From positions 1 through 22,082 of IMG/VR virus record IMGVR_UViG_3300010885_066606: a DNA stretch of 22,082 nt. One strand, given 5' to 3'. Source of the stretch: a virus. Each line of letters starts with the position of its first letter. Position 1 is the stretch's first letter. The notes beneath the pieces were generated by a model. That model worked only from the letters and a program-made list of their open reading frames with translations, did not search any database and was not told the origin of the DNA. Shown in pieces: positions 1,334-20,823 of this stretch. The position numbers and the translations under genes are program-made.

Positions 1334-1668
1334 AGTTGTATCTGTTGGAACTTACTTATTACTGTCATTATCTGTTTTCTGAGATATGGTTCTAGTTCTT
1401 CATAATCTCCTTTGAACTCATCATAGTCATCTATATATTCTCTGCTGTCATCTTCACTGTGCCATATAGTATCTCCCATCCATTCTATGCATTGATATCC
1501 TGCTGTAGGTTCTAGTGTTACCCAGAGTATATATGCTGTGTCATCTCCTAATTGTTTGTATAGGTGGGTATTGATGTTCTCGACTGCTTGTAATAATTCT
1601 TGTATTTCTATGATGTTCATATCTACTATCTTTATTTTTGATTCTTGTCGTGGTTTAATTGAATTCAA
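1330..1668 (-). CDS. Hypothetical acidic protein, 112 aa
   Basis: The product is rich in acidic residues and aromatic pairs (for example EWMGDTIWHSEDDSREYIDDYDEF cut here into parts: EWMGDTIWHS then EDDSREYIDD) and ends with a Lys/Gln-rich tail. No signal peptide or membrane segment is visible. It overlaps the gene upstream (1655-1885) by 14 bases and the gene downstream by 4 bases, so these are translationally coupled. An internal Met at residue 17 (MNIIEIQELL) is a possible alternative start and would remove the long overlap. I do not recognise the family. Confidence 0.65.
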   Translation of the reverse strand: MNSIKPRQESKIKIVDMNIIEIQELLQAVENINTHLYKQLGDDTAYILWVTLEPTAGYQCIEWMGDTIWHSEDDSREYIDDYDEFKGDYEELEPYLRKQIMTVISKFQQIQL

Positions 1669-1885
1669 CTGGTTCTAATTGTTTTAGTATCTCTTTCCAT
1701 AATTCTTTATCTTGATACTCACAGATGATGTTACCTCCTTTACAGTAATATTGTATACTGCTGTTATCTTTTCTATCACTCCATGCCTGGTAACCAAAGA
1801 CGTCTTTCATCTTTACTTTCAGATGAGTATATCCATCTATGGTTATCGTCAGTGAATAAAAATTAGTGGTTATCTTGACAATCAT
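1655..1885 (-). CDS. Hypothetical protein, 76 aa
   Basis: The product starts MIVKITTNFYSLTITIDG, with alternating hydrophobic residues suggesting a small beta-rich fold, and ends KELWKEILKQLEPVEFN. There are two Cys (in YYCKGGNIICEY) but no clear metal-binding pattern. It overlaps the small gene upstream (1863-2024) by 23 bases and the next gene downstream by 14 bases. Function unknown. Confidence 0.65.
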   Translation of the reverse strand: MIVKITTNFYSLTITIDGYTHLKVKMKDVFGYQAWSDRKDNSSIQYYCKGGNIICEYQDKELWKEILKQLEPVEFN

Positions 1886-2024
1886 TGAATATTAGCATTA
1901 CTTGCCGTGTTTGTATTATACCATAGAGTCTTGGTGCCAAGTAGTGGATGCAGCTTAGACTATCTTGTCTGGTGATGATAGATTTATGATATGATTCTAT
2001 TATGTCTTCGGTTATTAGTTTCAT
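1863..2024 (-). CDS. Small hypothetical protein, 53 aa
   Basis: ATG at 2024 opens a 53-codon frame ending TAA at 1863-1865. The product starts MKLITEDIIESYHKSIITRQ and contains LSCIHYLAPRLYGIIQTRQ, without a membrane segment. It fills the gap between the genes ending at 2055 and starting at 1885 and keeps the overlapping-gene style of the neighbourhood. Codon use resembles the neighbours. Function unknown. Confidence 0.5.
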   Translation of the reverse strand: MKLITEDIIESYHKSIITRQDSLSCIHYLAPRLYGIIQTRQVMLIFNDCQDNH

Positions 2025-2054
2025 GAGTCTAGTCTGCTTTCTATTAGGCGCATA

Positions 2055-2429
2055 TTATATCGTCTTTTGCTTTTCTATGTCTAGATTAGTCTCTGTGCGC
2101 TTCCTGGATATGATCATATGCTTAGATGCTTCTACTGCTTTAAAAAAGATCTTATGGGCAGCGCTTTGGGACATCTGTTTACTTGACTCAGTACACAACC
2201 AGGTAATCCCCATGTCAGCTATATCAGCAATAGTTCCCCAAAGTAAGTAATAGTGCACTTTGAGTTTATTGGATCTTTTACCTCTAGTGCCATATACCCA
2301 TTTTCTTGTAGTAGTTCCCATGCTATGAATCTCTTTAGGGTATAATACTGATTTCCCCAATGCTAAATGCTTGCCATTGAGCTCTGTTTGTATAATGATC
2401 TTTATGTCTGTCTTTATGATATTATTCAT
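2055..2429 (-). CDS. Hypothetical basic protein, 124 aa
   Basis: The first half is mixed (MNNIIKTDIKIIIQTELNGK) and followed by a basic stretch (TTTRKWVYGTRGKRSNKLKV), which could contact nucleic acid. The C-terminal half contains SSKQMSQSAAHKIFFKAVEA, possibly helical, and a charged tail. No known domain is recognised. The start overlaps the end of the gene at 2422-2625 by 8 bases, supporting coupled translation. Confidence 0.6.
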   Translation of the reverse strand: MNNIIKTDIKIIIQTELNGKHLALGKSVLYPKEIHSMGTTTRKWVYGTRGKRSNKLKVHYYLLWGTIADIADMGITWLCTESSKQMSQSAAHKIFFKAVEASKHMIISRKRTETNLDIEKQKTI

Positions 2430-2625
2430 GCAATGCGATTTTTAGTTGTTCTTTTATTGGGAATACAGACATTGCTATTGCTCGATTAAACACACCCATC
2501 CATTGAAAGAAAACGCCCGCAGCTGGATTTGCTGGATATAGAGATCCGATAATAGGATGGGATTGAAAAGCTTTATATATATCGTGCACGTATCCTTGAT
2601 TATATTCGAATTTAATTTCTTTCAT
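2422..2625 (-). CDS. Hypothetical protein, 67 aa, MKEI leader
   Basis: The product begins MKEIKFEYNQGYVHDIYKAF and contains an aromatic Gly/Pro segment (GSLYPANPAAGVFFQWMGVF). Its first four codons match those of the adjacent SQLx repeat genes, and it starts three bases after the stop of the mini-array ORF (2629-2688). The rest has no SQLx repeat. A shared 5' end suggests that the repeat cassettes recombine through the MKEI start region. Function unknown. Confidence 0.6.
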   Translation of the reverse strand: MKEIKFEYNQGYVHDIYKAFQSHPIIGSLYPANPAAGVFFQWMGVFNRAIAMSVFPIKEQLKIALHE

Positions 2626-2628
2626 GTC

Positions 2629-2688
2629 TTAGAAAAAGTCGAGCTGTGAGTCGAGCTGTGAGTCGAGCTGTGAATTAATTTCTTTCAT
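2629..2688 (-). CDS. Mini SQLx repeat ORF, 19 aa
   Basis: ATG at 2688 to TAA at 2629-2631 encodes MKEINSQLDSQLDSQLDFF: the same leader as the longer arrays with only three SQLD units. Its ATG overlaps the TGA of the larger array upstream (ATGA), so it could be translated by re-initiation. It is either a minimal cassette or a remnant left by repeat deletion. The three units are identical at DNA level (CAGCTCGACTCA). Confidence 0.5.
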   Translation of the reverse strand: MKEINSQLDSQLDSQLDFF

Positions 2689-2882
2689 ATCTTGGAATTT
2701 TCTAGCTGTGACCAGAGCTGTGAGGCGAGCTGTGAGGCGGGCTGTGAGGCGGGCTGTGAGTCGAGTGGATGCCAAAGCTGTGAGGCGAGCTGTGAGGCGA
2801 GCTGTGAGCTGAGCTGCCAGTAGAGCTGTGAGGCGAGCTGTGAGCTGAGCTGCCAGTCGAGCTGTGAATTAATTTCTTTCAT
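2685..2882 (-). CDS. SQLx tetrapeptide-repeat protein (array A), 65 aa
   Basis: After MKEIN the whole protein consists of tetrads: SQLD, WQLS, SQLA, SQLY, WQLS, SQLA, SQLA, SQLW, HPLD, SQPA, SQPA, SQLA, SQLW, SQLE, then NSKI. Each tetrad comes from a 12-bp unit, CAG CTC NNN TCA, with Gln, Leu and Ser codons nearly fixed and one variable codon. I chose the ATG at 2882 because MKEIN recurs in the other arrays; the frame is open to 2972 but that stretch covers a terminator hairpin and the conserved leader. The stop overlaps the next ATG. The array is GC-rich compared with its surroundings. Molecular role unknown; similar Q[VL]xx tetrads occur, from memory, inside DUF6745 proteins. Confidence 0.7.
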   Translation of the reverse strand: MKEINSQLDWQLSSQLASQLYWQLSSQLASQLASQLWHPLDSQPASQPASQLASQLWSQLENSKI

Positions 2883-2934
2883 AAACCTTGATTTGTTAGA
2901 ATATAAAAGTACAAAAATAACCTGATCTAGAAAA
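2883..2934 (-). promoter_or_regulatory. Conserved leader of array A
   Basis: This 52-base leader recurs almost unchanged before arrays E (7657-7708) and F (7909-7960), and its gene-proximal half before array D. On the minus strand it contains TAGTTTTG in the E and F copies (a match to the Bacteroidetes -7 box TAnnTTTG) and TACTTTTATATTCTAAC in this copy. It probably gives each array its own promoter and 5' UTR. Confidence 0.5.
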
Positions 2935-2937
2935 GAA

Positions 2938-2969
2938 AGAGTGCAAAGTCTATTAGGAAATTGCACTCT
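2938..2969 (-). terminator. Rho-independent terminator
   Basis: AGAGTGCAA (2938-2946) pairs perfectly with TTGCACTCT (2961-2969) around a 14-base loop. On the minus strand the stem is followed by CTTTCTTTT. It lies 6 bases after the stop of the gene at 2975-3115, so it ends that operon before the promoter of array A. The plus-strand side also has a short T run, so it could work both ways. Confidence 0.7.
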
Positions 2970-2974
2970 CATTT

Positions 2975-3115
2975 TTACTTGTCTTCATGATAAATATTGG
3001 TTTCTGGCGCCAGATCTTCTTCTTTAAAATGATTTGGGTCGATCTTCAACATCTTACGTCGTGAACTTGAAACTAAAGCTACACAACACACTAGAATTAT
3101 TACTAACATTGGCAT
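2975..3115 (-). CDS. Small membrane-anchored protein, 46 aa
   Basis: The frame from ATG at 3115 to TAA at 2975-2977 encodes a hydrophobic N-terminus (MPMLVIILVCCVALVSSS) followed by a charged tail (RRKMLKIDPNHFKEEDLAPE). A Cys pair at residues 10-11 could be a lipobox-like site or simply part of a membrane helix. The second Met (3109) is an alternative start. The gene ends directly before the terminator at 2938-2969, so it is the last gene of its operon. The tail probably faces the cytoplasm by the positive-inside rule. Function unknown. Confidence 0.6.
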   Translation of the reverse strand: MPMLVIILVCCVALVSSSRRKMLKIDPNHFKEEDLAPETNIYHEDK

Positions 3116-3131
3116 GGGATTTACTTCTTTT

Positions 3132-3323
3132 TTAGTCTTCTGCTTCGTACGCCTCTTTTATAGAATTGACATAGAAATCTATAGCTTGATCTGCACTAGA
3201 TGTTGGCGGTTTCTTGCCTATAGTCTGATTCAGACACTCAGTATACCCCAGTGATCTACCATATTCCAATGCGTCCCTTACTTCATCAAGGACATCTTCA
3301 AGCATTATTGCTATTTCTTCCAT
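3132..3323 (-). CDS. Small acidic helical protein, 63 aa
   Basis: The product starts MEEIAIMLEDVLDEVRDALE and ends IDFYVNSIKEAYEAED. It is acidic and mostly predicted helical by eye, with one Cys and no membrane segment. It sits in a run of small genes with gaps of about 10-16 bases (3335-3520 upstream, 2975-3115 downstream). Function unknown. Confidence 0.6.
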   Translation of the reverse strand: MEEIAIMLEDVLDEVRDALEYGRSLGYTECLNQTIGKKPPTSSADQAIDFYVNSIKEAYEAED

Positions 3324-3334
3324 ATTATTTGATT

Positions 3335-3520
3335 TTATTCTTCGTCGTGTAATACAAGTCCAGACGACATATTACCACCCTGTTCTTTTAAATTCGAGTG
3401 TCCTTTTTTGATCAACTCCATTATCTTCTTCTTGATCTCCTTTATAGAAGTTCCGTATTGCTTAAGTTGATCTTGCTCATCTGGACTAAGTCCTTTAATG
3501 CTTTCTTTAACGTATGACAT
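3335..3520 (-). CDS. Small Lys-rich helical protein, 61 aa
   Basis: The sequence MSYVKESIKGLSPDEQDQLK followed by SIKEIKKKIMELIKKGHSNL looks like two amphipathic helices, the second strongly basic. The tail is NMSSGLVLHDEE. No known domain is visible. It lies 12 bases after the zinc-site gene at 3533-3769 in the same operon. Confidence 0.6.
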   Translation of the reverse strand: MSYVKESIKGLSPDEQDQLKQYGTSIKEIKKKIMELIKKGHSNLKEQGGNMSSGLVLHDEE

Positions 3521-3532
3521 TGAGTTGTATTT

Positions 3533-3769
3533 CTAATAAGTATCTGAAGTTTGCGAAGACTTAAGTCTATTTATCTCATAAGCTAGTTTAGGATCTCTAA
3601 TAACTTGGATTGATGATACTTCTTCGCTCTCTTTTCCTTCTGTAACTATTAGTCCTACAAATTTTTTGGTTTCAGAGTGAATAACACACGTATCTTTGTA
3701 CCCTAGTTGTACTCTCTTTGGGTGTATCTGAGTATCACATATTTTGCAATAATGTCTTGGTTCTTCCAT
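3533..3769 (-). CDS. Small putative zinc-binding protein, 78 aa
   Basis: Cys8 and Cys11 (CKIC) with Cys28 and His31 (CVIH) form a plausible CCCH zinc site in the first 31 residues. The rest is mixed polar, including an acidic linker (TEGKESEEVSS) and a C-terminal Ser/Thr-rich tail. Treble-clef or ribbon-like small proteins are common in phages, where they may bind nucleic acid or host proteins, but the target cannot be inferred here. Confidence 0.6.
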   Translation of the reverse strand: MEEPRHYCKICDTQIHPKRVQLGYKDTCVIHSETKKFVGLIVTEGKESEEVSSIQVIRDPKLAYEINRLKSSQTSDTY

Positions 3770-3824
3770 TAGTCTATAACTGTTTATTTAATGAATGTAT
3801 ACTTTATTTGTGATAGGGTAAAAA

Positions 3825-3938
3825 CTATTTCTTGTGCTCTTCTTTATAATATCTAGTCATTTTATTACTCTTCTTCTTTAATGAGAGAATAATAACAGTA
3901 ATAAAAAACATTATGAAAACGTAGTAATCAAGTAACAT
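3825..3938 (-). CDS. Tiny single-helix membrane protein, 37 aa
   Basis: ATG at 3938 to TAG at 3825-3827 encodes one hydrophobic segment (LDYYVFIMFFITVIILSL) followed by a basic tail (KKKSNKMTRYYKEEHKK). The start lies four bases after the stop of the holin-like gene (3943-4248). By the positive-inside rule the tail is cytoplasmic. Adjacency to a holin-like protein is suggestive of a lysis or membrane role, but nothing shows this directly. Confidence 0.5.
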   Translation of the reverse strand: MLLDYYVFIMFFITVIILSLKKKSNKMTRYYKEEHKK

Positions 3939-3942
3939 AGGC

Positions 3943-4248
3943 TTATTTTCTTTCTGAAATCATGAAATTCAATATAGTCTTCTGTAAATCATTGAGCGCT
4001 TGCGTATTGTCTTGTATTAGCTTTGACATCCGATCTCTCTCTTCTATAAGCAAATCATTCATCTCTTTCTGCACTCTGTCTATTTTCTCTTCTAGCATAT
4101 CATTTCTTTCTACTAGCTTTTGATATTGCTGGAATGCTACATATGCTAAGACGACCGTAATTACTCCTAGAATTCCATATTGGAGAACATAATTCTGTGC
4201 ACCTTCTGGCACCATAGCGTTTGTGACTTGAAGTAAAAGTGCTATCAT
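3943..4248 (-). CDS. Holin-like membrane protein with coiled coil, 101 aa
   Basis: A short N-terminal segment (MIALLLQVTNAMVPEGAQ) is followed by a membrane helix at about residues 24-41 (YGILGVITVVLAYVAFQQ) and a long charged coiled coil (LVERNDMLEEKIDRVQKEMN and on to the end). One helix followed by a charged coiled coil, with YGI before the helix, resembles the BhlA/UviB type of phage holin-like protein. No endolysin gene is visible nearby, so the lysis role is a guess. The ATG is preceded by TAAA, typical of Bacteroidetes initiation. Confidence 0.55.
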   Translation of the reverse strand: MIALLLQVTNAMVPEGAQNYVLQYGILGVITVVLAYVAFQQYQKLVERNDMLEEKIDRVQKEMNDLLIEERDRMSKLIQDNTQALNDLQKTILNFMISERK

Positions 4249-4281
4249 TTTATGTAGGATTTATTATCAATAAATATCAGA

Positions 4282-4431
4282 TTATTTATCAGATCTATAT
4301 CGTTCTATCAATCCTTTTGTATAAATTTTCAAACTTCCTAATTTTATATCTACTCCATTAAATGTAAGATAAAAAGTAAATAGGAGAAACGATATTATCC
4401 TAACGGTATTTAATTTATTAATGTTTTTCAT
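4282..4431 (-). CDS. Small membrane-anchored protein, 49 aa
   Basis: ATG at 4431 to TAA at 4282-4284 encodes 49 residues: a basic start (MKNINKLNTVR), a hydrophobic helix (IISFLLFTFYLTF) and a polar tail (NGVDIKLGSLKIYTKGLIER). The start overlaps the TGA of array B by 4 bases (ATGA), just as the mini-array overlaps array A, so it should be translated with the array. The first residues and helix could also be a signal sequence. Function unknown. Confidence 0.55.
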   Translation of the reverse strand: MKNINKLNTVRIISFLLFTFYLTFNGVDIKLGSLKIYTKGLIERYRSDK

Positions 4432-4589
4432 ATTTTGGAATTTTTTAGCTGCCAGTCGAGCTGCAAGTCGAGCTGTGAGAAGAGCTGTGAGAAGAGCTGT
4501 GAGTAGAGCTGTGACCAGAGCTGTGAGACGAGCTGTGAGTAGAGCTGTGAGTAGAGCTGTGAGTCGAGCTGTGAGTTAATTTGTTTCAT
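4428..4589 (-). CDS. SQLx tetrapeptide-repeat protein (array B), 53 aa
   Basis: After MKQIN the tetrads are SQLD, SQLY, SQLY, SQLV, SQLW, SQLY, SQLF, SQLF, SQLD, LQLD, WQLK, then NSKI, the same C-terminus as array A. The ATG at 4589 lies one base after the stop of the gene at 4591-4791; the frame is open to 4649, but starting there would overlap that gene by about 60 bases and lose the conserved leader. This array has no upstream copy of the conserved leader and lacks the W[RH]PL unit found in most others. It is probably transcribed with its neighbours. Confidence 0.7.
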   Translation of the reverse strand: MKQINSQLDSQLYSQLYSQLVSQLWSQLYSQLFSQLFSQLDLQLDWQLKNSKI

Positions 4590-4590
4590 T

Positions 4591-4791
4591 TTACTTACGA
4601 TCTTTATACCACGGATTAATACTATTATTCTTCTGGACTCTTGATCCAACCTTATTAAGATATGACCACGTATTGAACTCTATCTCTGACTCTGGATAAT
4701 ATGTTCTAAAACCTGGTTGCGTATTTACGATATTATCTCCTTTTGCAGAGATGCCAAATATAATGTGCTTTATTGTACTCATAACTTTCAT
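4591..4791 (-). CDS. Hypothetical protein, 66 aa
   Basis: The product starts MKVMSTIKHIIFGISAKGDN and contains GFRTYYPESEIEFNTWSYLN and a basic C-terminus ending WYKDRK. It sits exactly between arrays C and B, 15 bases after the first and 1 base before the second. An alternative start is Met4. No domain is recognised. Confidence 0.55.
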   Translation of the reverse strand: MKVMSTIKHIIFGISAKGDNIVNTQPGFRTYYPESEIEFNTWSYLNKVGSRVQKNNSINPWYKDRK

Positions 4792-4806
4792 TTTTATTAT
4801 TAAAAT

Positions 4807-5031
4807 CTAAAACGTCATTTCTAATTGTGAAATAAGCTGTAAATCAAGCTGTAAATCAAGCTGTAAATCAAGCTGTAAATCAAGTCTTGAATAGATTTGT
4901 GAATGGATTTGTGAGTCGAGCTGTGAGGCGAGTGGACGCCAAAGCTGTGACCTGAGCGTTGACCAGAGAGGTGAGTAGGACTGTAAGACGAATTGACGCT
5001 GACGTTGTGAACTAAAACTAATTTCCTTCAT
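4807..5031 (-). CDS. SQLx tetrapeptide-repeat protein (array C), 74 aa, diverged
   Basis: The protein begins MKEISFSSQRQRQFVLQSYS and then enters tetrads: PLWS, TLRS, QLWR, PLAS, QLDS, QIHS, QIYS, RLDL, then four QLDL-type units and QLIS, ending QLEMTF. The N-terminal third has drifted from the 12-bp consensus while leucine spacing of four is kept from residue 22. The DNA units in the C-terminal part differ from the other arrays (AGCTGTAAATCA on the plus strand instead of AGCTGTGAGTCG), so this array has expanded independently. The W[RH]PL unit is present. It follows the putative structured RNA at 5047-5138. Confidence 0.65.
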   Translation of the reverse strand: MKEISFSSQRQRQFVLQSYSPLWSTLRSQLWRPLASQLDSQIHSQIYSRLDLQLDLQLDLQLDLQLISQLEMTF

Positions 5032-5046
5032 AATTTTAATTTGTAA

Positions 5047-5138
5047 ACAATACTTCCAGTTAGATCAATGATACGCGGGTCTACATTGCCTTAATTATTC
5101 CGTGAGACAGGCGAGTACGGAAGCTGGTTTAGTATTGT
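5047..5138. ncRNA. Putative structured RNA / three-way junction
   Basis: ACAATACT (5047-5054) pairs with AGTATTGT (5131-5138), and CCAG (5056-5059) with CTGG (5124-5127), closing a junction with two hairpins: CAATG/CATTG (5066-5070 with 5084-5088) and TTCCGT/ACGGAA (5098-5103 with 5117-5122). Both loops are 13 bases and carry complementary GTCT (5079-5082) and AGAC (5105-5108), allowing a loop-loop contact. The segment lies in the 178-base gap between the DUF6745-like gene and array C, and could be a 5' regulatory element of array C. It does not fit a tRNA. The strand is not determined. Confidence 0.4.
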
Positions 5139-5209
5139 AATATTTTGAAGAGTTACCTATATCTTCATACCCAATGTTGAAGGCTCGAATGGTATTAATT
5201 ATTATTATG

Positions 5210-6232
5210 CTAAGACCTCATATCAAACCTATACTCATCGGCTGTCAACCTACTCAGTGAAGCGATTGCCTCTATTGCATCTGTATGGTGAGGTTCTACT
5301 CCCTGAAGATACTGAGTACCCGTAGAAGGACAAACCATCTTGACCCATGCAAAAGGTTGATTGTCTATCTCCTCAAATTTGTCTTCTGTCTTTAATAATG
5401 TTACTTCCTCGAGATCTCCATTTGAATGGACAATAGTCTGTTTATCAAACTCTTTAGCTCCGAGAAGATTCATTATGCCTTTTTGTCCAAGAATCTCATA
5501 CCACGCACCCTTGTGGTCAGAGTTGCGTTCTTTAATGAATTCCTCACGTGTAAGTGATTTGGCTTTATTAAAAATCTCTGCTGGAATATGACGACCATTG
5601 ATATAATAACAATCGTCCCAACTTGTACAAGGGTATGTGCTATCCCAAGTAACTGCTTGATATGCTGGGTTATGCAAGAGATTAGCAGCATTACGCACAA
5701 TCTTTGTAGGGTATTTGCTTACGATGCAAACTTCCTCGCAGAATATAGTAGAGTAGATATTCGCCTTCCAATTGAGAGACTCAAGCTCATTCAATTCCTT
5801 GGCAGCTCCTGTGGTTTCAATCTTAAATTCATCTTGGATAAATTTATACCACGTGTAATAATAGCGAGCATAAATACCTATGGCGAATAGAGAAGATTCT
5901 ACAAACTTCATCTTGCCTTTATTGTCTTTGATGAATTTAGCTAGATCTTTTTCTGGGATATTTGATATTCCACTAGCAGCGGTCTCTATCATATTCTCAT
6001 TCTCTACTAAGTAGTGGTACATTATCTTGGCTTCGAGAGGATTCTCTACAACGATAAGGTGCTTTGGACGAGGCTTTTCTGCCATATCATATAGCTTATT
6101 AATGATTCCAAGTGCAGCTTCTTTATCGAAGTTTTTGTGGTTCTTGCCATCAAATACACCATCTAAGGCGTGGTCTATATAATCTGGGATCTTTGCTTTG
6201 ATCTCGTCTGTAAATTGATCTAAAGTAATCAT
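5210..6232 (-). CDS. DUF6745-like protein, 340 aa
   Basis: The N-terminal part (about residues 38-76, IINKLYDMAEKPRP then LIVVENPLEAKIMYHYL) resembles the family pattern LYxxxGxPxP...vxSPxxA. The C-terminal half (about 167-335) follows the DUF6745 order: CIVSKYPTKIVRN, then VTWDSTYPC, YYINGRHIPAEIF, the ERNSDHKGAWYEILG helix, a D/NGDLEEV strand, VKMVCPSTGTQYLQGVEP and a final helix ending ADEYRF. From memory, family members often carry an internal Q[VL]xx tetrad repeat in the middle; here residues 80-130 show none. The domain has no known function. The gene is flanked by SQLx arrays on both sides. Its upstream element is shared with the gene at 6399-6767. Confidence 0.65.
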   Translation of the reverse strand: MITLDQFTDEIKAKIPDYIDHALDGVFDGKNHKNFDKEAALGIINKLYDMAEKPRPKHLIVVENPLEAKIMYHYLVENENMIETAASGISNIPEKDLAKFIKDNKGKMKFVESSLFAIGIYARYYYTWYKFIQDEFKIETTGAAKELNELESLNWKANIYSTIFCEEVCIVSKYPTKIVRNAANLLHNPAYQAVTWDSTYPCTSWDDCYYINGRHIPAEIFNKAKSLTREEFIKERNSDHKGAWYEILGQKGIMNLLGAKEFDKQTIVHSNGDLEEVTLLKTEDKFEEIDNQPFAWVKMVCPSTGTQYLQGVEPHHTDAIEAIASLSRLTADEYRFDMRS

Positions 6233-6253
6233 AACTATTTGTTTTTTAGTATG

Positions 6254-6288
6254 TTATAAAAATAATAAAATTTATTGAGATTTTATAG
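6254..6288 (-). promoter_or_regulatory. Conserved upstream element of the DUF6745-like gene
   Basis: On the minus strand CTATAAAATCTCA is followed about 12 bases later by TATTTTTATAACATAC and then the ATG at 6232. The same arrangement, with almost the same bases, lies before the gene at 6399-6767 (6785-6826). Two genes with the same promoter-like element should be expressed together. Confidence 0.5.
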
Positions 6289-6298
6289 TTAAAGTTTA

Positions 6299-6327
6299 AA
6301 GTAAGACGAATTTCCCTTGTTTTACTT
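6299..6327 (-). terminator. Weak terminator-like hairpin
   Basis: AAGTAAGAC (6299-6307) pairs with GTTTTACTT (6319-6327) with one G-U pair and an 11-base loop. It lies between the gene at 6399-6767 and the DUF6745-like gene. The minus-strand T run after it is short and broken, so termination would be partial. Confidence 0.35.
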
Positions 6328-6398
6328 GATACCAGATAGTGGATATAGATTTTTTAAAATGTATTGCTGCATCTTTTTTACATTTAGTGATTTACTTA

Positions 6399-6767
6399 TT
6401 AATCAAGTACGCGTTCCATTAAACGGCTATATGGGTTATACGAATTTTGAATATAGATTTCATAAATACCCGATGGAAGATGCAACGGCTTATGATCCGC
6501 TATAGGTAATTCTTTTGTGGACACCCAGTCACTCTCTTTGAAGTAATTCTCGTGGACGTGTTGCATGGTCGCACCATCGCTACCAACAGCTGCGAAGAAT
6601 GTTCCATCTTCTGCCATAAATAGTTCAACATCTCCTGTCAAGCAGTGTTGATGTCCTGAATGCTCACCATAAGCGACTGGTTGATTCTTAACTTTCTTCA
6701 GATTCTTTGGAAGCTCTGATATTTGACGACCTTGAACGTCTCCTTGGTGGAATACTAACTTTTTCAT
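6399..6767 (-). CDS. QGDV/GEHSGH-family small protein, 122 aa
   Basis: The sequence carries the motifs of a widespread uncharacterised small-protein family: HQGDV at 7-11, a conserved hinge PKNLKKVKNQPVAYGEHSGH at about 20-39 followed by QH, a beta-rich middle, MQHVHE near 68-73, and a C-terminus ADHKPLHLPSGIYEI (90-104) then NSYNPYSRLMERVLD. The clustered His residues (38, 41, 70, 72, 92) may bind metal; this is inference. From memory, homologues are often encoded beside DUF6745 genes, which matches the position here. It shares its upstream element with the DUF6745-like gene, so the two are probably co-expressed partners. Confidence 0.6.
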   Translation of the reverse strand: MKKLVFHQGDVQGRQISELPKNLKKVKNQPVAYGEHSGHQHCLTGDVELFMAEDGTFFAAVGSDGATMQHVHENYFKESDWVSTKELPIADHKPLHLPSGIYEIYIQNSYNPYSRLMERVLD

Positions 6768-6784
6768 AATTTTAATATTTTATT

Positions 6785-6826
6785 TGGTATGTTATAAATG
6801 TAATGAAATTTTTTGAGATTTTATAG
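6785..6826 (-). promoter_or_regulatory. Conserved upstream element of the QGDV-family gene
   Basis: The minus strand reads CTATAAAATCTCAAAAA, then TTTCATTACATTTATAACATACC, ending about 18 bases before the ATG at 6767. The second block is shared with 894-904 and the first with 6276-6288. The same TAAAATCTCA block also lies directly before the HTH gene (near 7152-7162) and before the gene at 9901-10239 (near 10246-10257). Confidence 0.5.
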
Positions 6827-6864
6827 TCTATCTTCTAAGTAATAAATATCTATCGTTTTAATAA

Positions 6865-6898
6865 AAGACTCACTGGATTCTTAGGCCCAGTGAGTCTT
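6865..6898 (-). terminator. Rho-independent terminator after the HTH gene
   Basis: AAGACTCACTGG (6865-6876) pairs perfectly with CCAGTGAGTCTT (6887-6898): a 12-bp stem with a 10-base loop. On the minus strand it is followed by TTATTAAAA. It lies 18 bases after the HTH gene stop, so that gene ends its own transcript. Confidence 0.75.
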
Positions 6899-6915
6899 AA
6901 TAATTAGATCTTTAA

Positions 6916-7149
6916 CTAGATCATTTCAGAGTTGGCTTTACGACCACGAACCATGTCAAAAACTTCATTCATGATCCGAGCATTAAACTCCTTGCCTGCG
7001 ATTACATCGCTACAATGTGTCAAAGAATACCCAGTGCGATTTGCTACTCGAGTTACATCGCCTTTACGGATACGACGGTTGGCTATGACGGCCTTTTGAA
7101 TGTACGTACGAGTCTGATAGCTCGTCGGACGATTGCTTGTGTTTCTCAT
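6916..7149 (-). CDS. Small basic helix-turn-helix-like protein, 77 aa
   Basis: The protein is basic and carries a likely helix-turn-helix at about residues 28-52 (RKGDVTRVANRTGYSLTHCS followed by DVIAGK), where the pattern DVTxVAxxTGYSxxHxSDVxxGK resembles lambda-repressor-type HTH proteins. The tail ends VFDMVRGRKANSEMI. It is probably a DNA-binding regulator acting in the cytoplasm. It has its own promoter-like upstream sequence and its own terminator, and is encoded between the QGDV-family gene and the tandem SQLx block, so it is a reasonable candidate regulator of those genes. Confidence 0.6.
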   Translation of the reverse strand: MRNTSNRPTSYQTRTYIQKAVIANRRIRKGDVTRVANRTGYSLTHCSDVIAGKEFNARIMNEVFDMVRGRKANSEMI

Positions 7150-7224
7150 TTTTGAGATTTTATTTAGTTAACAATAGATACAATATAAAAATAAACGATT
7201 TTTTTGAAGAATAAAAATTTTTGT

Positions 7225-7416
7225 TTAGAGTAATCTGAGCTGTGAGTAGAGCGGTGAGTAGAGCGGTAAGTAGAGCTGTGAGCCGAGCTGTGAGTCGAGT
7301 GGACGCCAAAGCTGTGAGCTGAGCTGTGAGCTGAGCTGTGAGGCGAGCTGTGAGTAGAGCTGTGAGCGGAGCTGTGAGTCGAGCTGCCAGTCGAGCTGTG
7401 AATTAATTTCTTTCAT
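7225..7416 (-). CDS. SQLx tetrapeptide-repeat protein (array D), 63 aa
   Basis: MKEIN is followed by SQLD, WQLD, SQLR, SQLY, SQLA, SQLS, SQLS, SQLW, RPLD, SQLG, SQLY, LPLY, SPLY, SQLR, LL. The W unit is the eighth, as in array A, and the first two units also match A in part. Variable codons are GAC, CGC, TAC, GCC, AGC, TGG and GGC, so mostly the first two bases change and the third is C. Gln, Leu and Ser codons are almost always CAG, CTC and TCA. The leader at 7417-7441 provides a likely promoter. Role unknown. Confidence 0.7.
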   Translation of the reverse strand: MKEINSQLDWQLDSQLRSQLYSQLASQLSSQLSSQLWRPLDSQLGSQLYLPLYSPLYSQLRLL

Positions 7417-7441
7417 AAACCTTGATTTGTTAGAATATAAA
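7417..7441 (-). promoter_or_regulatory. Leader of array D (gene-proximal half conserved)
   Basis: The first 24-25 bases upstream of the ATG match the leaders of arrays A, E and F. Beyond that the sequence switches to a block (TCTTCAAAAAAATCGTTT on the minus strand) that also lies upstream of the HTH gene, showing recombination between upstream regions. Confidence 0.45.
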
Positions 7442-7476
7442 AAAAAACGATTTTTTTGAAGAATAAAAATTTTTGT

Positions 7477-7656
7477 TTAGAGTAATCTGAGCTGTGAGTG
7501 GAGCTGTGAGTAGTGCTGTGAGACGAGCTGTGACCGGAGCTGTGACCGGAGCTGTGACCGGAGCTGTGAGTCGAGTGGATGCCAAAGCTGTGAGGCGAGC
7601 TGTGTGGCGAGCTGTGAGTAGAGCTGTGAGCGGAGCTGTGAATTAATTTCTTTCAT
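7477..7656 (-). CDS. SQLx tetrapeptide-repeat protein (array E), 59 aa
   Basis: ATG at 7656 to TAA at 7477-7479. After MKEIN the tetrads are SQLR, SQLY, SQLA, TQLA, SQLW, HPLD, SQLR, SQLR, SQLR, SQLV, SQHY, SQLH, SQLR, then LL. Three consecutive CGG units look like a recent local duplication. Two units depart from the consensus by single bases (TQL, SQH). The start, end and flanks are the same as in arrays D and F, and the full leader lies upstream. Confidence 0.7.
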   Translation of the reverse strand: MKEINSQLRSQLYSQLATQLASQLWHPLDSQLRSQLRSQLRSQLVSQHYSQLHSQLRLL

Positions 7657-7708
7657 AAACCTTGATTTGTTAGAATATAAAAGTACAAAACTAATTTGAT
7701 CTAGAAAA
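7657..7708 (-). promoter_or_regulatory. Conserved leader of array E
   Basis: The 52-base leader is the same as at 7909-7960 and nearly the same as at 2883-2934. On the minus strand it includes TAGTTTTGTACTTTTATATT; TAGTTTTG fits the Bacteroidetes -7 consensus. No -33 box is evident. Confidence 0.5.
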
Positions 7709-7716
7709 ATTTTTGT

Positions 7717-7908
7717 TTAGAGTAATCTGAGCTGTGAGTAGAGCTGTGAGCCGAGCTGTGAGTAGAGCTGTGACCGGAGCTGTGAGACGAGCTGTGACCG
7801 GAGCTGTGACCGGAGCTGTGAGTCGAGCTGTGAGTGGAGCTGTGAGTGGAGCTGTGAGGCGAGTGGACGCCAAAGCTGTGAGTCGAGCTGTGAATTAATT
7901 TCTTTCAT
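7717..7908 (-). CDS. SQLx tetrapeptide-repeat protein (array F), 63 aa
   Basis: MKEIN is followed by SQLD, SQLW, RPLA, SQLH, SQLH, SQLD, SQLR, SQLR, SQLV, SQLR, SQLY, SQLG, SQLY, SQLR, LL. The W[RH]PL unit is the second to third here instead of the eighth to ninth. Other frames of the array are also open because the 12-bp unit contains no stop, but only this frame shares the leader and the stop with the other arrays. The three-residue end SQLRLL and flank match arrays D and E. Confidence 0.7.
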   Translation of the reverse strand: MKEINSQLDSQLWRPLASQLHSQLHSQLDSQLRSQLRSQLVSQLRSQLYSQLGSQLYSQLRLL

Positions 7909-7960
7909 AAACCTTGATTTGTTAGAATATAAAAGTACAAAACTAATTTGATCTAGAAAA
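7909..7960 (-). promoter_or_regulatory. Conserved leader of array F
   Basis: Same leader as at 7657-7708, lying just after the stop of array G. It should allow separate transcription of array F from the HNH/array G operon upstream. Confidence 0.5.
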
Positions 7961-7968
7961 GTTTTTGT

Positions 7969-8169
7969 TTAAAGTGATGTATTAATTCTCCAATTTAATG
8001 GAATCATTACTTTGAACTTTATCCTATCTTCGAGTTTATCATGTAATTTCCACTCGAGTTGATTTCTTATTACAGATCTAATTTTGAAATTATCATCTAT
8101 TACTCTATTCATAGGAATCCATAATAATGAAGTGAGCTTATTAATAAATGTAGAATTTATCTCTTTCAT
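7969..8169 (-). CDS. Diverged tetrad protein (array G), 66 aa
   Basis: This gene starts MKEINS and ends in the same TAAACAAAAA flank as arrays D-F, but its DNA has no 12-bp repeat and normal AT-rich composition. Hydrophobic residues still fall on every fourth position: 8, 12, 16, 20, 24 (F, L, L, M, I) and, after a two-residue shift, 30 to 66 without exception (I, I, L, L, L, I, V, L, I, L). LWIPM at 16-20 and MIPLN at 55-59 match the LW[RH]PL unit of the other arrays. The tetrad pattern is therefore kept at protein level. The ATG overlaps the stop of the HNH-like gene by 4 bases (ATGA). Confidence 0.7.
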   Translation of the reverse strand: MKEINSTFINKLTSLLWIPMNRVIDDNFKIRSVIRNQLEWKLHDKLEDRIKFKVMIPLNWRINTSL

Positions 8170-9488
8170 CGATAGTCTATAAGATCTTCTATATCTGGAT
8201 GAGTCATATCTTTAGTCTGACTATTGGGAGATTCTTTTAATCTGTCCTCTTTTGCTTTGACATTCTCAGCCATGTCTTTAACCCCAAGATGTTTAAGATG
8301 TTCCAAGTAAAAATCATCTATCTTATAGAATGATTCTAGCTCTTTTGGGGCATCAGGGGATTCAGGCGCAATTGCTTGTAAGACCTGACGTTTAGCCTTC
8401 GTAAAGTAGTCAAGAGATAGCAAGAATGAACAATTATAACATAGCCACCTAAGATTATCTTCTCTCCAATCAGTTCTGTCATTATTTTTGAAGTTAAGTA
8501 ATAGTGGCATCTTCATATCTATAGGTCTCTTTTGTGAGAATTCACACTCGGCGCAACAGAATCCAAGTCTACCATCCTTCATTAGTCTTGATGCTAGTTC
8601 ATCTACTCGTACTGGAGTCGAATATTGACCTTGGATAAGTTGATACCCTAATTCTAAAGCTCGAGGGTTGACTTGATTCCTGGATGCTTTCCTTACTTTG
8701 GGTACGCCCTTGCCACCAGTCGCTGTATGGATATCAAATAGAGTTCTACCATTGATTGGATCTACGTACATCTTGGCATATTTCCTCCAAGTCTTATATG
8801 TTACTCTCAACCAAGAGGCCGCCTCTTTATTACTACGTGTATTTTTTATTGCACTACGTACTAATTCCTCAGAGAGCTGAAGTCCCTTATATTTATGTTC
8901 ATCTAGTATTACATGTCCGGGTTTAAATCTTGCTTCCTCGAATGCCTGCTTTCTCGCCTTTAGTTTATCAAACCAACCAGATTCTTTTCTTGCTAAAAAT
9001 CTCTCATAATTAATCTTTCTCCACTTCTCATATTGAAGTTCAAATAATGTCATTCCAGTCTCATCATCAGTATACATCTGAGCATACTTCTTCCAAGCGT
9101 CCCTAGATATTTCCATTATCTCAGCTGCTTCTCTATTAGAATTACTAATAGCCATTGCGTCTAAAACTTGCTGTTTGGTTAACTCAAGTTTATTATTATT
9201 AGATTTATTGTCAATTTTAATCCCCTTTTTACCCTCGCCAACCTTATTCGCCTTCTCTACGAGTAGTGCTTTGCGTTGGAGTTCTAGCAATGTAAGTCCT
9301 GTCTCTGCATCTAAGTACTTATTAGCCCAAGTCTTAAACCGCATTTCACTTACATTAATGAATCTAGCAGCTCTATTTATGTGATTAGAATGTTGTAGAG
9401 CTTTACGTATATCAGACTCGGAGATTACAAATTGTGCCGCATGTGATTTCCATGCTTTCTTGGGATCATCGAATAGACCTGAAGACAT
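8166..9488 (-). CDS. HNH-like zinc protein with three HTH-like repeats, 440 aa
   Basis: Three similar segments of about 50 residues lie at 23-71, 103-152 and 205-253. Each has the order helix, N.[ER]AA..[IL].[VI]......[KT]W..YA..Y.D..[TN]G.TL[FL][ED][IL], a likely helix-turn-helix followed by a shared tail. A zinc site follows (Cys312/Cys315 and Cys350/Cys353) enclosing LLNFKNNDRTDWREDNLRWL, the layout of an HNH nuclease, yet the usual catalytic His residues are replaced (LNF for HH, and Ser after the last Cys). So it probably binds DNA but may not cut it, or the true catalytic residues are elsewhere. Related proteins are known among phage homing-type endonucleases. Start is ATG at 9488. Confidence 0.6.
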   Translation of the reverse strand: MSSGLFDDPKKAWKSHAAQFVISESDIRKALQHSNHINRAARFINVSEMRFKTWANKYLDAETGLTLLELQRKALLVEKANKVGEGKKGIKIDNKSNNNKLELTKQQVLDAMAISNSNREAAEIMEISRDAWKKYAQMYTDDETGMTLFELQYEKWRKINYERFLARKESGWFDKLKARKQAFEEARFKPGHVILDEHKYKGLQLSEELVRSAIKNTRSNKEAASWLRVTYKTWRKYAKMYVDPINGRTLFDIHTATGGKGVPKVRKASRNQVNPRALELGYQLIQGQYSTPVRVDELASRLMKDGRLGFCCAECEFSQKRPIDMKMPLLLNFKNNDRTDWREDNLRWLCYNCSFLLSLDYFTKAKRQVLQAIAPESPDAPKELESFYKIDDFYLEHLKHLGVKDMAENVKAKEDRLKESPNSQTKDMTHPDIEDLIDYR

Positions 9489-10599: not shown

Positions 10600-11154
10600 T
10601 CAGATAATCTCATCAATGAATCCAAGCTCCAGCGCTTCATCTGGTGTTATGTACCACTCTTGATTTCTGTCTTTAATAGATTTTAGAGTCTTTTTCGTCA
10701 CGCTTGTATATTCTAGTATCACATTATCATATAGCTGTTGCATCCTTTCGCCCTCTGCCGCCTCTTGCTTGTGATACCTAAGCTTCTCTTGTCCAGTCTC
10801 CCACGATATTTCATGATACATTAAAGTAGATCTTTTACTCATCTTTCTCACATTTCCTACACAGAGTATTGGTAGAGCCATTGATTGAGCTTGACCTTGA
10901 ACGATAATATGAATAGGGGTTTGTGAAGCTTCTATACAATCTACTAAACCAAAACCACAATAGACGTGTCCACCTTCTGAATTGAGTATAAGTTGTATTG
11001 GCTCACGAGAATCTATAGCTAATTTTTCATCTTCTTTATTGATCTCATATATAAGACCTATCACCTCATTCACATTCTCATCTTCTATTTCCCCAAGCGT
11101 AATTATTCTACTTAGCGAATCTTGATATTTCTTTTTAGTATGTTTAGGTTCCAT
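10600..11154 (-). CDS. ClpP-like serine protease, 184 aa
   Basis: The protein has the ClpP/crotonase fold signature: PIQLILNSEGGHVYCGFGLV for the first strands, GQAQSMALPIL with the nucleophile Ser, and STLMYHEIS with the catalytic His. ClpP forms a barrel-shaped protease; phage ClpP-like enzymes often act as prohead maturation proteases. Near the C-terminus DRNQEWYITPDEALELGFID aligns with the ClpP DRD..M...EAL..G.ID region, but the third member of the triad appears to be Glu rather than Asp by simple alignment. The length is close to bacterial ClpP (about 190-200). No capsid gene is adjacent in this window, so its role is open. Confidence 0.75.
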   Translation of the reverse strand: MEPKHTKKKYQDSLSRIITLGEIEDENVNEVIGLIYEINKEDEKLAIDSREPIQLILNSEGGHVYCGFGLVDCIEASQTPIHIIVQGQAQSMALPILCVGNVRKMSKRSTLMYHEISWETGQEKLRYHKQEAAEGERMQQLYDNVILEYTSVTKKTLKSIKDRNQEWYITPDEALELGFIDEII

Positions 11155-11210: not shown

Positions 11211-11978
11211 TTAGTCTATATATTTTAGATTAGTTTCTGGATCATGTTTTATATAGGAACCCCATTTATATCTAGAATACTCATGAGCTGAGATTTCTGA
11301 ATCACGTCTTTGATTCCCAGTGGCTATCTGGGCAAAGTGGTAGAAATGACAGTTATATGTTCTTGTCATCTTAAGTTCTGATAAATTACACTTAAGGAAG
11401 AAATCCCAGTCTGCCACTACTCCATTTGTAGGGTAATTCTCATCCCATCCTCCCAATCTTAGATAATCTCTCTTGCTCATCATAAAAGGTAGAGTAGATC
11501 CACAATGTTCTTCTACTTCATCTTTTTTTATAGTTAGAGAGTACTCCTTAAACTTATGAAGATCGAAATTATCTATAGTTTTACCAAGATCTTTTATGTG
11601 GAACTGATTGAATATGCTAGGATTTGGCTCTATCTGATTTGGAGATAATACAGATCCTTGTTGGTAGGAACTCAACAAGTCTACATCCCAATTCATAGGA
11701 AATACATTGTCATCATTTACCACTAAGACTGCATCATATTTAGCATTATAAACTCCGATATTAGTAACTCTGCAAAGTCCTTGGTTTTCTTCCAAGATCA
11801 CTACGTCTATTTCACCTTTATACTTATCTAACACTGACTTATTTAGATCATAGAATCCGTCTACGATGACTATTATCTGATTCTTATTATACTGTCCTGA
11901 AATAGCCGATTTGATGCAAAGATCTAAATATTCAGGTTCTTTGTATGTTGGGATAATTACTGATATTTTATTGCTCAT
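11211..11978 (-). CDS. GT2-family glycosyltransferase, 255 aa
   Basis: The N-terminus VIIPTYKEPEYLDLCIKSA is typical of GT-A family 2 transferases, and VVNDDNVFP (residues 86-94) contains the DXD-like metal/nucleotide-sugar site (Asp89-Asp90). A later VADWDFFLKC (about 187-196) fits the acceptor/base region. It should transfer a sugar from a nucleotide donor in the cytoplasm; the acceptor is unknown. Base composition is like the phage genes on the right and left rather than the AT-rich genes that precede it in the operon. The start overlaps the end of the next gene by ATGA. Confidence 0.8.
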   Translation of the reverse strand: MSNKISVIIPTYKEPEYLDLCIKSAISGQYNKNQIIVIVDGFYDLNKSVLDKYKGEIDVVILEENQGLCRVTNIGVYNAKYDAVLVVNDDNVFPMNWDVDLLSSYQQGSVLSPNQIEPNPSIFNQFHIKDLGKTIDNFDLHKFKEYSLTIKKDEVEEHCGSTLPFMMSKRDYLRLGGWDENYPTNGVVADWDFFLKCNLSELKMTRTYNCHFYHFAQIATGNQRRDSEISAHEYSRYKWGSYIKHDPETNLKYID

Positions 11979-12655
11979 ATTTTAGACCAATCTATTGTAG
12001 GTGATAATAGCGAATTTGCACAATGAGTAGATAATCCGGGTATTGGAGTTAATATAAATCTATTTTTATGTTCATTTAAATATAAATGTTTATTATGATC
12101 TCCTATAATTGTAGTTTGAATTTCATAATCTTCATCAAATATTTTTTTAGGTACGATATATGATCCACAAGTACTTGGTGTAGTTCTCCAATGGTGAGTA
12201 TTTGTTGTAATTATTTTTGATACTAAATCTTGATATTGTGGTAAAAAATACTTATCATTATGATCATACAAACTAATATAGTTTAGAGCATTAAACGTAC
12301 TATATAATTCAATTAATTTTTCACTCCAATTATTAATATGCAAATAATCATTTTCTAAAATATAAATTAAATCATTATCATTACATTCATAATCTTTTAT
12401 AATTTTATATACTGATCTAGTAATTACATCTATGATACCACCACTAAATTCATACGCAGTATACAGATGTTTATATTTCTTAATCCAATTGTCTTCTATC
12501 TTTCCATCCATTAAAATATTAAGCTTAATATTTGCTTTATCTTTAATAGAATTAAGTAAATTTAAAAAACATTTTTCATAATCGAACCAACCTGGTCTAT
12601 TTTTATTATCCGTATGAGTTACGTTATAGTGACTATAAAATATGTGTATATTCAT
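11975..12655 (-). CDS. Putative GT-A-like glycosyltransferase, 226 aa
   Basis: The protein opens MNIHIFYSHYNVTHTDNKNR and has ILENDYLHINNW at about 99-110, where END may act as the DXD-like site. A later TTPSTCGSYIVPKKIF and GDHNKHLYLNEH fit an acceptor-side region. Similar proteins occur in phage and bacterial surface-sugar clusters, but the identification is by pattern only. It is the first gene on the left of the AT-rich part of the operon. Confidence 0.55.
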   Translation of the reverse strand: MNIHIFYSHYNVTHTDNKNRPGWFDYEKCFLNLLNSIKDKANIKLNILMDGKIEDNWIKKYKHLYTAYEFSGGIIDVITRSVYKIIKDYECNDNDLIYILENDYLHINNWSEKLIELYSTFNALNYISLYDHNDKYFLPQYQDLVSKIITTNTHHWRTTPSTCGSYIVPKKIFDEDYEIQTTIIGDHNKHLYLNEHKNRFILTPIPGLSTHCANSLLSPTIDWSKI

Positions 12656-12667
12656 TATTGTGATTTA

Positions 12668-13252
12668 TTATATCCACCTAAATTTAATTTCATTATTAGC
12701 AATATTCTTATTTTTATTACATTTTGCTAGTATATTATACTTAATTGGAAATAGTTCTCGGTCTGGAGTTTCTAAAGTATCTATCTCTATAATATCAAAA
12801 TCTTTTAATAAAACTCTCCATCCATGTTCTGTAAATCTCCAACAATCAGGCGAAGGGCCATGTATTCTCCAATTGAGTGGAGCTGATACTAATAAATAAC
12901 CGCCATCTTTTAAAAGTCTTCTTAGTTCTTTAATTGCATCAAAAGGATTTGTCGTATGTTCTAATACTTCTAAACATGCTATACAATCATAAGTACTATC
13001 AGCTATAGATGAATTACAAGTAGTTAAATCTCCTACGTGCGTAGGATTATATGTATCAACAATATCAAACGTATCTATACTATAGTTTGTAAAATTAAGT
13101 TGAATTTCTGAACGATCTTGAGAACCAATCTCTAATAATTTTCCAGTTAAATCTTCTTTTTTTGTAGTTTCTGCTACTCTTTGAATAAACTCAGTAATAT
13201 GTTTTCTTGTTAATTCAAAAGTCTCATTATCAAATTTTCCAGGTATCGCCAT
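12668..13252 (-). CDS. Class I SAM-dependent methyltransferase, 194 aa
   Basis: Motif I is LLEIGSQD (39-46), an acidic strand end follows (DIVD, 63-66), and CLEVLEHTTNPFDAIKELRR (93-112) is the typical Methyltransf_11 helix after the catalytic strand. LLKDGGYLLVSAP (113-125) is the next strand. NWRIHGPSPDCWRFTEHGW is found in many O-antigen cluster methyltransferases, from memory. It probably methylates a sugar or a glycan end. It lies 18 bases upstream of no terminator and continues the operon. Confidence 0.75.
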   Translation of the reverse strand: MAIPGKFDNETFELTRKHITEFIQRVAETTKKEDLTGKLLEIGSQDRSEIQLNFTNYSIDTFDIVDTYNPTHVGDLTTCNSSIADSTYDCIACLEVLEHTTNPFDAIKELRRLLKDGGYLLVSAPLNWRIHGPSPDCWRFTEHGWRVLLKDFDIIEIDTLETPDRELFPIKYNILAKCNKNKNIANNEIKFRWI

Positions 13253-13270
13253 TATATTTTCTATTTTTAG

Positions 13271-14089
13271 TTAAATTAATTTATGCTTAAATAAAGATCC
13301 TCCTAAAATATCTCCATCTTTTTTAGCTGTTGTAATAAAAAGATCTCTTAAATCTTCTCCACCTAAACAACAAGACGTTACTCTAGAACATGGAACTATT
13401 ATCTCATCTAATACTCGTCCGCTACGTATATCCCATTTTCTAACTCTACCCCCTTCCCACTCAGCTATCCAAATATGACCATCTAAATCTACACACATTC
13501 CATCTGGCCACCCAATTCCATCTATTTCTACAATGTATTTTTCAAAAACAATGTTACCTGTTTCTAAATCATACTCATACTGCGCTACTTTTTTTGTAGG
13601 AGTATCTATAAAATACATTCTTTTATTATCATGAGAAAATCCAATTCCGTTAGATATTGATAAATCATCTAATAACGTTGTATATTCTCCATTGTAATAA
13701 GAAAATAATTTTCCCTTTACGATAGATTTTTCCATAAAGAAATCTTTTTTACTTTTAGTCCCAACTATAAATCTTCCAATTGGATCAAATCTACCGTCAT
13801 TGTATCGTAAATCTTCACTTGATTCAAACTGTATTAGATATATTCTCTCTCCAGTTGTAGGGTTTATTTTATAGATACCACCCTTCTCAGCTGATATAAT
13901 ACAACCATCTTTGTATAGACCTATGCAGCCAACGCTACCTGAAGTAGTATAAGATTGTACTTCTCCTGAATTATGATTAATTTTATAAATAACCCCCTGT
14001 TCTATAGATACACAGTATACTAATTTATTATGCGCATCCCAAACCGGACCTTCTAATAAACTAGATCCAGCGTAAAAAACTAATTCCAT
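13271..14089 (-). CDS. SMP-30/gluconolactonase/LRE-like protein, 272 aa
   Basis: All main motifs of the six-bladed SMP-30 propeller are present: LLEGPVWD (Glu13), RYNDGRFDPIGRFIVGT (Asn97-Asp98), SNGIGFSHDNKRMYFID (Asn147) and PDGMCVDLDGHIWIAEW (Asp196), the metal ligands of the family. Members hydrolyse sugar lactones. No signal peptide is seen, so it acts in the cytoplasm. In this operon it may act on an oxidised sugar made by the SDR or RmlD-like enzymes; that is inference. The length is close to the usual 280-300. Confidence 0.8.
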   Translation of the reverse strand: MELVFYAGSSLLEGPVWDAHNKLVYCVSIEQGVIYKINHNSGEVQSYTTSGSVGCIGLYKDGCIISAEKGGIYKINPTTGERIYLIQFESSEDLRYNDGRFDPIGRFIVGTKSKKDFFMEKSIVKGKLFSYYNGEYTTLLDDLSISNGIGFSHDNKRMYFIDTPTKKVAQYEYDLETGNIVFEKYIVEIDGIGWPDGMCVDLDGHIWIAEWEGGRVRKWDIRSGRVLDEIIVPCSRVTSCCLGGEDLRDLFITTAKKDGDILGGSLFKHKLI

Positions 14090-14094
14090 AATAT

Positions 14095-15297: not shown

Positions 15298-15317
15298 AAA
15301 CTATTTTTTTATTGAAA

Positions 15318-17277: not shown

Positions 17278-17280
17278 TAA

Positions 17281-18180: not shown

Positions 18181-18192
18181 AATAATTCTTTA

Positions 18193-20822: not shown

Positions 20823-20823
20823 A

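Follow-up and report, generated by a model that had tools for sequence, protein, structure and literature searches.

The closest described relatives of the locus analysed here are the DUF6745 proteins, one of which is encoded by Microcystis phage LMM01. Their core is homologous over its length to a protein in the window (the whole stretch of DNA analysed, 22,082 nucleotides of IMG/VR virus record IMGVR_UViG_3300010885_066606) and has the same neighbour, a small gene referred to here as QGDV. Fused members of the family carry an array of Ser-Gln-Leu-x tetrads at one fixed place, whereas the window encodes a core without an array and the same type of array as separate genes in multiple copies. 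No paper naming DUF6745 or the tetrad repeat was found in a literature search that had most subscription journals outside its scope.

Three other systems invite comparison. The TAEL repeats of EcoR124 HsdS are 12-bp repeats that are helical and set spacing (PMC3874165). Like the arrays, the TAEL repeats of the type IC HsdS proteins (EcoR124I/II) have a 12-bp unit, a leucine at every fourth position and a variable copy number. They differ in forming a characterised spacer of two or three identical copies with no variable residue, and sequence homology with the arrays is not claimed. HsdS-type recognition domains were sought and none were found, and the array helices drawn by AlphaFold2 have a pLDDT of only 37-55. 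The variable proteins of diversity-generating retroelements resemble the arrays in having hypervariable codons in a fixed frame, but 21 virus records with arrays or cores yielded no reverse transcriptase, and the diversity of the arrays looks like the exchange of 12-bp units. TAL effectors are built from near-identical units of approximately 34 residues with one variable site. They are comparable to the arrays only in how they work, as the unit here is four residues and there is no homology.

Array genes and the tetrad unit

The window contains the seven (SQLx)n array genes that the original prediction had proposed. All lie on the minus strand between positions 2629 and 7908 and form complete open frames from ATG to stop codon. 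Mini-A (2629-2688, 19 aa) consists of three SQLD units, and its ATG overlaps the stop codon of array gene A (2685-2882, 65 aa) in the sequence ATGA. Gene A is identical in the related contig L108, which represents the same virus (99.95% identity across 7.4 kb); four further tetrad genes of this virus lie beyond, in L184. Array gene B (4428-4589, 53 aa, with an MKQI start) is matched at the corresponding position of L109 (6627-6788) by a gene that differs in its x residues but ends similarly. Array gene C (4807-5031, 74 aa) is half degenerate and contains a phase shift; its L109 counterpart is at 6208-6396. Array genes D (7225-7416, 63 aa), E (7477-7656, 59 aa) and F (7717-7908, 63 aa) follow. 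Tandem Repeats Finder detects 12-bp arrays at all seven gene sites. The three units of mini-A and the degenerate half of C are small corrections to the claim that these genes consist almost wholly of tetrads. The arrays are GC-rich in an AT-rich genome, as predicted, with a G+C content of 0.47-0.56 (0.40 for C) compared to 0.33 for the window.

The array genes also have related leaders on the same strand. Approximately 25 bp directly 5' of the ATG are identical among genes A, D, E and F (leaders at 2883-2935, 7417-7450, 7657-7710 and 7909-7960, respectively). The identity extends to approximately 50 bp between E and F, and the leader of A is nearly the same. Gene G (7969-8169, minus strand) encodes a diverged tetrad protein of 66 aa without a DNA repeat. 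It has hydrophobic residues at every fourth position at residues 4-28 and 30-66, with one phase shift between these segments, and orthologues are kept in five related contigs (L079, L109, L115, L123 and L186). An MKEI-start gene that follows mini-A (2422-2625, minus strand; orthologue at 8225-8422 of L042) lacks tetrads, and its membership in the array family is uncertain.

Several other features of the window were recorded. A gene at 8166-9488, encoding a 440-aa protein with weak matches to helix-turn-helix and HNH endonuclease domains, ends beside gene G, and this placement is conserved in relatives. The product of 10600-11154 is a ClpP-like protease for which the top PHROG match is a head maturation protease. 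A very AT-rich run of genes at 11211-21861 (G+C mostly 0.21-0.35), with glycosyltransferase, SDR dehydrogenase and SMP-30-like matches, is a probable sugar-modification island. An AT-rich 18-bp tandem repeat (ATACCTTTTTTG...) is located at 403-476, with more copies nearby to approximately position 930.

Variation within the tetrad is concentrated in the x codon. In the 71 in-phase units of the window (gene C being left out for its shifting phase), the fraction of non-major bases is 0.58, 0.56 and 0.27 at the first, second and third positions of x (x1, x2 and x3) and 0.03-0.17 at the nine positions of the Ser, Gln and Leu codons. The predicted hypervariable codon is thus present. The three remaining codons vary little, but are less fixed than was claimed: many units read WQL, HPL, RPL, SQP, LPL or SQH. 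The x residues in these units are D (14), Y (12), R (11), A (10), W (6), S (4), V (3) and H (3), plus others. None of the 71 x codons is a stop, where approximately three would be predicted from the column frequencies. Stops at x and loss of frame in relatives had been named beforehand as evidence that would count against the prediction, and neither occurred.

A comparison of codon use across loci covered 1749 units from 88 distinct perfect arrays. Because these arrays were chosen for a perfect SQL protein pattern, only the silent sites are informative on the uniformity of the Ser, Gln and Leu codons. Silent third bases depart from the majority of their own array in 0.2% (Ser), 0.4% (Gln) and 0.7% (Leu) of units, while x1 varies in 48% and x2 in 33%. 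The 88 arrays use 25 synonymous codon combinations, each fixed inside its own array; therefore, the units of an array are homogenised with one another, and the arrays have no DNA motif in common. At x, D (27%), Y (22%), R (19%) and G (15%) predominate, followed by W, H, N, S and E. The codons are mostly NNC or NNT, 97% have a purine as second base and A is the rarest first base. Among codons that end in G, AGG and CGG (Arg), TGG, GGG and GAG are used, AAG (Lys) occurs once and CAG (Gln) never. This pattern points to a preference at the amino-acid level. Given this choice of residues and their turnover, x may reasonably be a specificity position.

The DUF6745 core, its partner and the split and fused forms

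An IMG/VR search with array gene F identified 105 relatives, 80 of which were fetched. Most of these carry the array in frame inside a longer protein with common N- and C-terminal parts. Array gene F matches the fused proteins at 66-86% identity. The parts that flank the arrays match the Pfam family DUF6745 (PF20530; e.g. 5e-20, 5e-18 and 6e-29), and the array, of 14 to 57 units, is placed at one fixed site in this protein of approximately 300 aa. Among matches to genome contigs, L090, L091, L097, L101 and L103 were retained, whereas most of the others were discarded as simple repeats. L091 (Muricauda) and L090 (Rhizorhabdus) are loci with a fused array. DUF6745 proteins with an array occur in many phages and some bacteria, and the family is present in 13 of 146 sampled cyanobacterial genomes, with up to seven copies each. 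The original prediction had described a form without precedent in phages; arrays are in fact found in more than 100 IMG/VR contigs, mostly inside DUF6745 proteins. The proposal of a modular repeat with one variable position, kept uniform by unit exchange and conserved in frame, stands, but not that of a family standing alone.

In the window, an array-less DUF6745-type core of 340 aa is encoded at 5210-6232 (minus strand) and was recognised by alignment to the fused relatives. It scores 18.6 bits against PF20530, under the cut-off of 27, and its membership in DUF6745 thus rests on alignment and the core tree; the fused relatives L022, L010 and L089 pass with 65-101 bits. The window core aligns with L014, L023 and L091 (35-43% identity) both before and after the point at which these proteins carry the array, and it has motifs in common with the fused proteins in both the N- and C-terminal parts. 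Without their arrays, most fused cores have a length of 280-400 residues, which is the range of the array-less cores. The window core was found in 23 viral loci, in most of which its identity is 82-100%.

Just upstream of the core is a gene for a 122-aa protein (6399-6767, minus strand), the QGDV/GHxH partner. Members of this family are approximately 95-140 aa with a QGD motif at the start and conserved His, Glu and Asp residues. Of the 43 fused loci, 39 have a QGDV gene within a few kb, usually adjoining, as do 14 of the 15 array-less ones, and the gene adjoins DUF6745 genes on cyanobacterial chromosomes too. AlphaFold2 predicts an all-beta protein (pLDDT 93) with no solved relative by sequence or by fold. 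In the fused relative L023, the core is mostly predicted above 90 and the low-scoring array is drawn as two helices; the core likewise has no solved relative by fold or by sequence. Searches of the array peptides against Pfam, PHROGs, NCBIfam and PADLOC returned composition-driven matches only. With PADLOC, the core, partner and array gave weak matches, the best being a Type I specificity subunit (2e-6). This match covers the repeat and is plausibly driven by it.

Some related loci have additional genes. L012 encodes tandem fused DUF6745 proteins (148-1263 and 1558-3054) with a QGDV gene between them. A jumbo phage encodes a second DUF6745 protein with a [D/N]QVx array (895-2193 of L132) besides its array-less core (L126). 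Two similar proteins with CxxC zinc-finger-like starts, possibly transposase-like, are encoded in the DUF6745 region of L020 (7690-8616 and 10162-11079). L043 encodes a protein with G-I-K/E-A-G-x hexad repeats (84-677) and also has free SQLx genes.

In a tree of 51 cores, the array-less cores are interleaved with fused ones in four places: the window clade, three jumbo phages, L077 and L028. The window clade is sister to the fused L023 and nested within fused members. Strongly supported branches force at least three changes between the split and fused states, of four changes overall; L077 and L028 are long branches of uncertain placement. Free tetrad genes are located near 10 of 15 array-less cores compared to 1 of 43 fused loci, a count in which related contigs are scored separately and some loci came from the array query, so that its nominal p-value is too low. 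Five overlapping array genes directly follow the core in L077, and several surround it in L028. Degenerate tetrad genes are found in L118, and in the jumbo phage L127, free (SELx)n genes are located 7-13 kb from an array-less core. Diverged free members such as the jumbo-phage proteins retain hydrophobic residues at every fourth position without a DNA repeat; a filter for this spacing is passed by only 1 of 478 ordinary small ORFs. Their composition suits a helix with a Leu stripe. No recognisable free array was found in the available sequence around the array-less cores of L120, L121, L122 and L125, two of which are 4-kb fragments; in the 158-kb record of L122, neither SQL nor SEL queries gave a free array.

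Turnover of the arrays

Between near-identical phages, arrays diverge far faster than the flanking DNA. Outside their arrays, L013 and L057 are the same at all but 9 of 6318 sites, whereas 396 bp of array or adjoining sequence contain six codon changes, all nonsynonymous, and a two-unit insertion. Only two of these six changes are at x, and Ser and Leu codons are hit as well. L041 is without one whole array gene that is present in L042, with 1 difference in 6202 positions elsewhere in the alignment. L010 and L029 keep 95% of their core residues while their arrays are re-ordered. The make-up of x also differs sharply among close relatives, being D/Y in L014, Y/G in L015 and G/R/D in L084.

The order of x residues carries some signal of block duplication (67 repeated six-letter words versus 12). 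Adjacent x residues resemble each other slightly less than expected by chance (lag 1 z -3.2), and no clear periodicity was found in the order. Single-unit slippage is rejected as the main process, since it gives a lag-1 z of +7 to +17 in simulation. Simulated multi-unit exchange with frequent change at x approaches the observed order, and block exchange alone reaches a lag-1 z as low as -2.5. Pairing of opposite charges across a hairpin-folded array was also considered and gave no signal (0.724 versus 0.712, sd 0.028).

A proposed module and its alternatives

We consider it somewhat probable that the array genes are the detached and multiplied variable segment of a DUF6745 module composed of core, QGDV/GHxH partner and arrays. 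The proposed model is the following. Most phages carry the array inserted into the core, between its N-terminal and C-terminal parts. The cores of this virus and of at least two further lineages have no array, and several short array peptides are encoded separately in each genome. Given the repeated fusion and fission, these peptides would naturally be expected to assemble with the core in trans. The leucine at every fourth residue may form a packing face, probably along a helix, although the frequent Gly at x and Pro at the Gln or Leu position run contrary to a long regular helix. The residues at x (D, Y, R, G, W, H, N and S) would make up a multivalent interaction surface, one that could change quickly because near-identical 12-bp units recombine in blocks. 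Such recombination would add, remove or reorder units and homogenise silent sites, and several free cassettes would allow one core to use alternative arrays. Against this module stand the score of the window core under the Pfam cut-off, the four array-less cores without a free array and the small share of codon changes that fall at x in L013 and L057. In addition, a neutral shuffle of permitted residues would likewise yield a random x order.

A role for the x residues in recognition is a plausible proposal. More tentatively, the module may be a combinatorial phage system for protein recognition, in which interchangeable array peptides would program a single DUF6745 core and each four-residue unit would supply one contact from a small set of residue types (acid, aromatic, Arg and Gly).

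The main rival to a recognition role is a scaffold with freely drifting order. The array would be a self-assembly segment, in which Ser, Gln and Leu together with Tyr, Arg, Asp and Gly would make multivalent homotypic contacts to form a bundle, filament or condensate, and its make-up and length would matter while x order drifts. We regard this as possible, if rather unlikely. Sticky low-complexity proteins typically have a make-up of S, Q, Y, R, D and G, with R favoured over K and Y or W over F. The arrays resemble such proteins, and an x order close to random, fused arrays spanning 14 to 57 units and a core that is confidently folded beside an array that is not are all consistent with a scaffold. 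However, the Ser, Gln and Leu positions are far stricter than is usual in low-complexity segments, and the x make-up diverges sharply among the close relatives L014, L015 and L084. Neighbouring residues that are unlike each other also argue against a scaffold, yet the simulated block exchange alone comes close to the observed value.

It is improbable that the arrays are molecular rulers or spacers like the TAEL repeats, for which the number of units would matter and x would be tolerated. The unit size (12 bp, four residues and Leu at every fourth), the varying number and the indel of whole units between near-identical phages fit this explanation, but TAEL repeats have two or three copies compared to 14-57 units here. 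A spacer also needs no avoidance of Lys and Gln or preference for Tyr, Trp and Arg at x, and detached array genes cannot space the halves of the core in cis.

Less probable still is a role for the repeats as DNA (recombination or binding sites), with coding incidental. The extreme uniformity that each array shows at its silent sites and the lack of a recurrent stop in five of the six frames of a pure array speak for this explanation, but codon choice differs between loci, and a DNA-motif function is rejected on this ground. Moreover, all fused loci read are joined in the same frame, and diverged members keep the four-residue pattern without a DNA repeat.

Targeting of the x codon by a diversity-generating retroelement is the least probable explanation and is mostly excluded: x codons are mostly NNC or NNT and change at their first two bases, but a reverse transcriptase (PF00078) was found in 0 of 21 virus records with arrays or cores (some of them fragments), the purine second base and rare first-base A are unlike A-to-N mutagenesis, and Ser and Leu codons change too.

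Returning to the DUF6745 module, an uncharacterised family spread across many phages and bacteria holds a coding segment that changes very fast yet follows a strict four-residue grammar. As the components of the module are now named (core, array and QGDV partner) and separate genes can supply the array, its function is directly testable. If x proves to set binding, the tetrad would provide a new designable repeat. If the combinatorial reading is true, re-ordering of 12-bp units would alter the binding of the module in competition with hosts or other phages.
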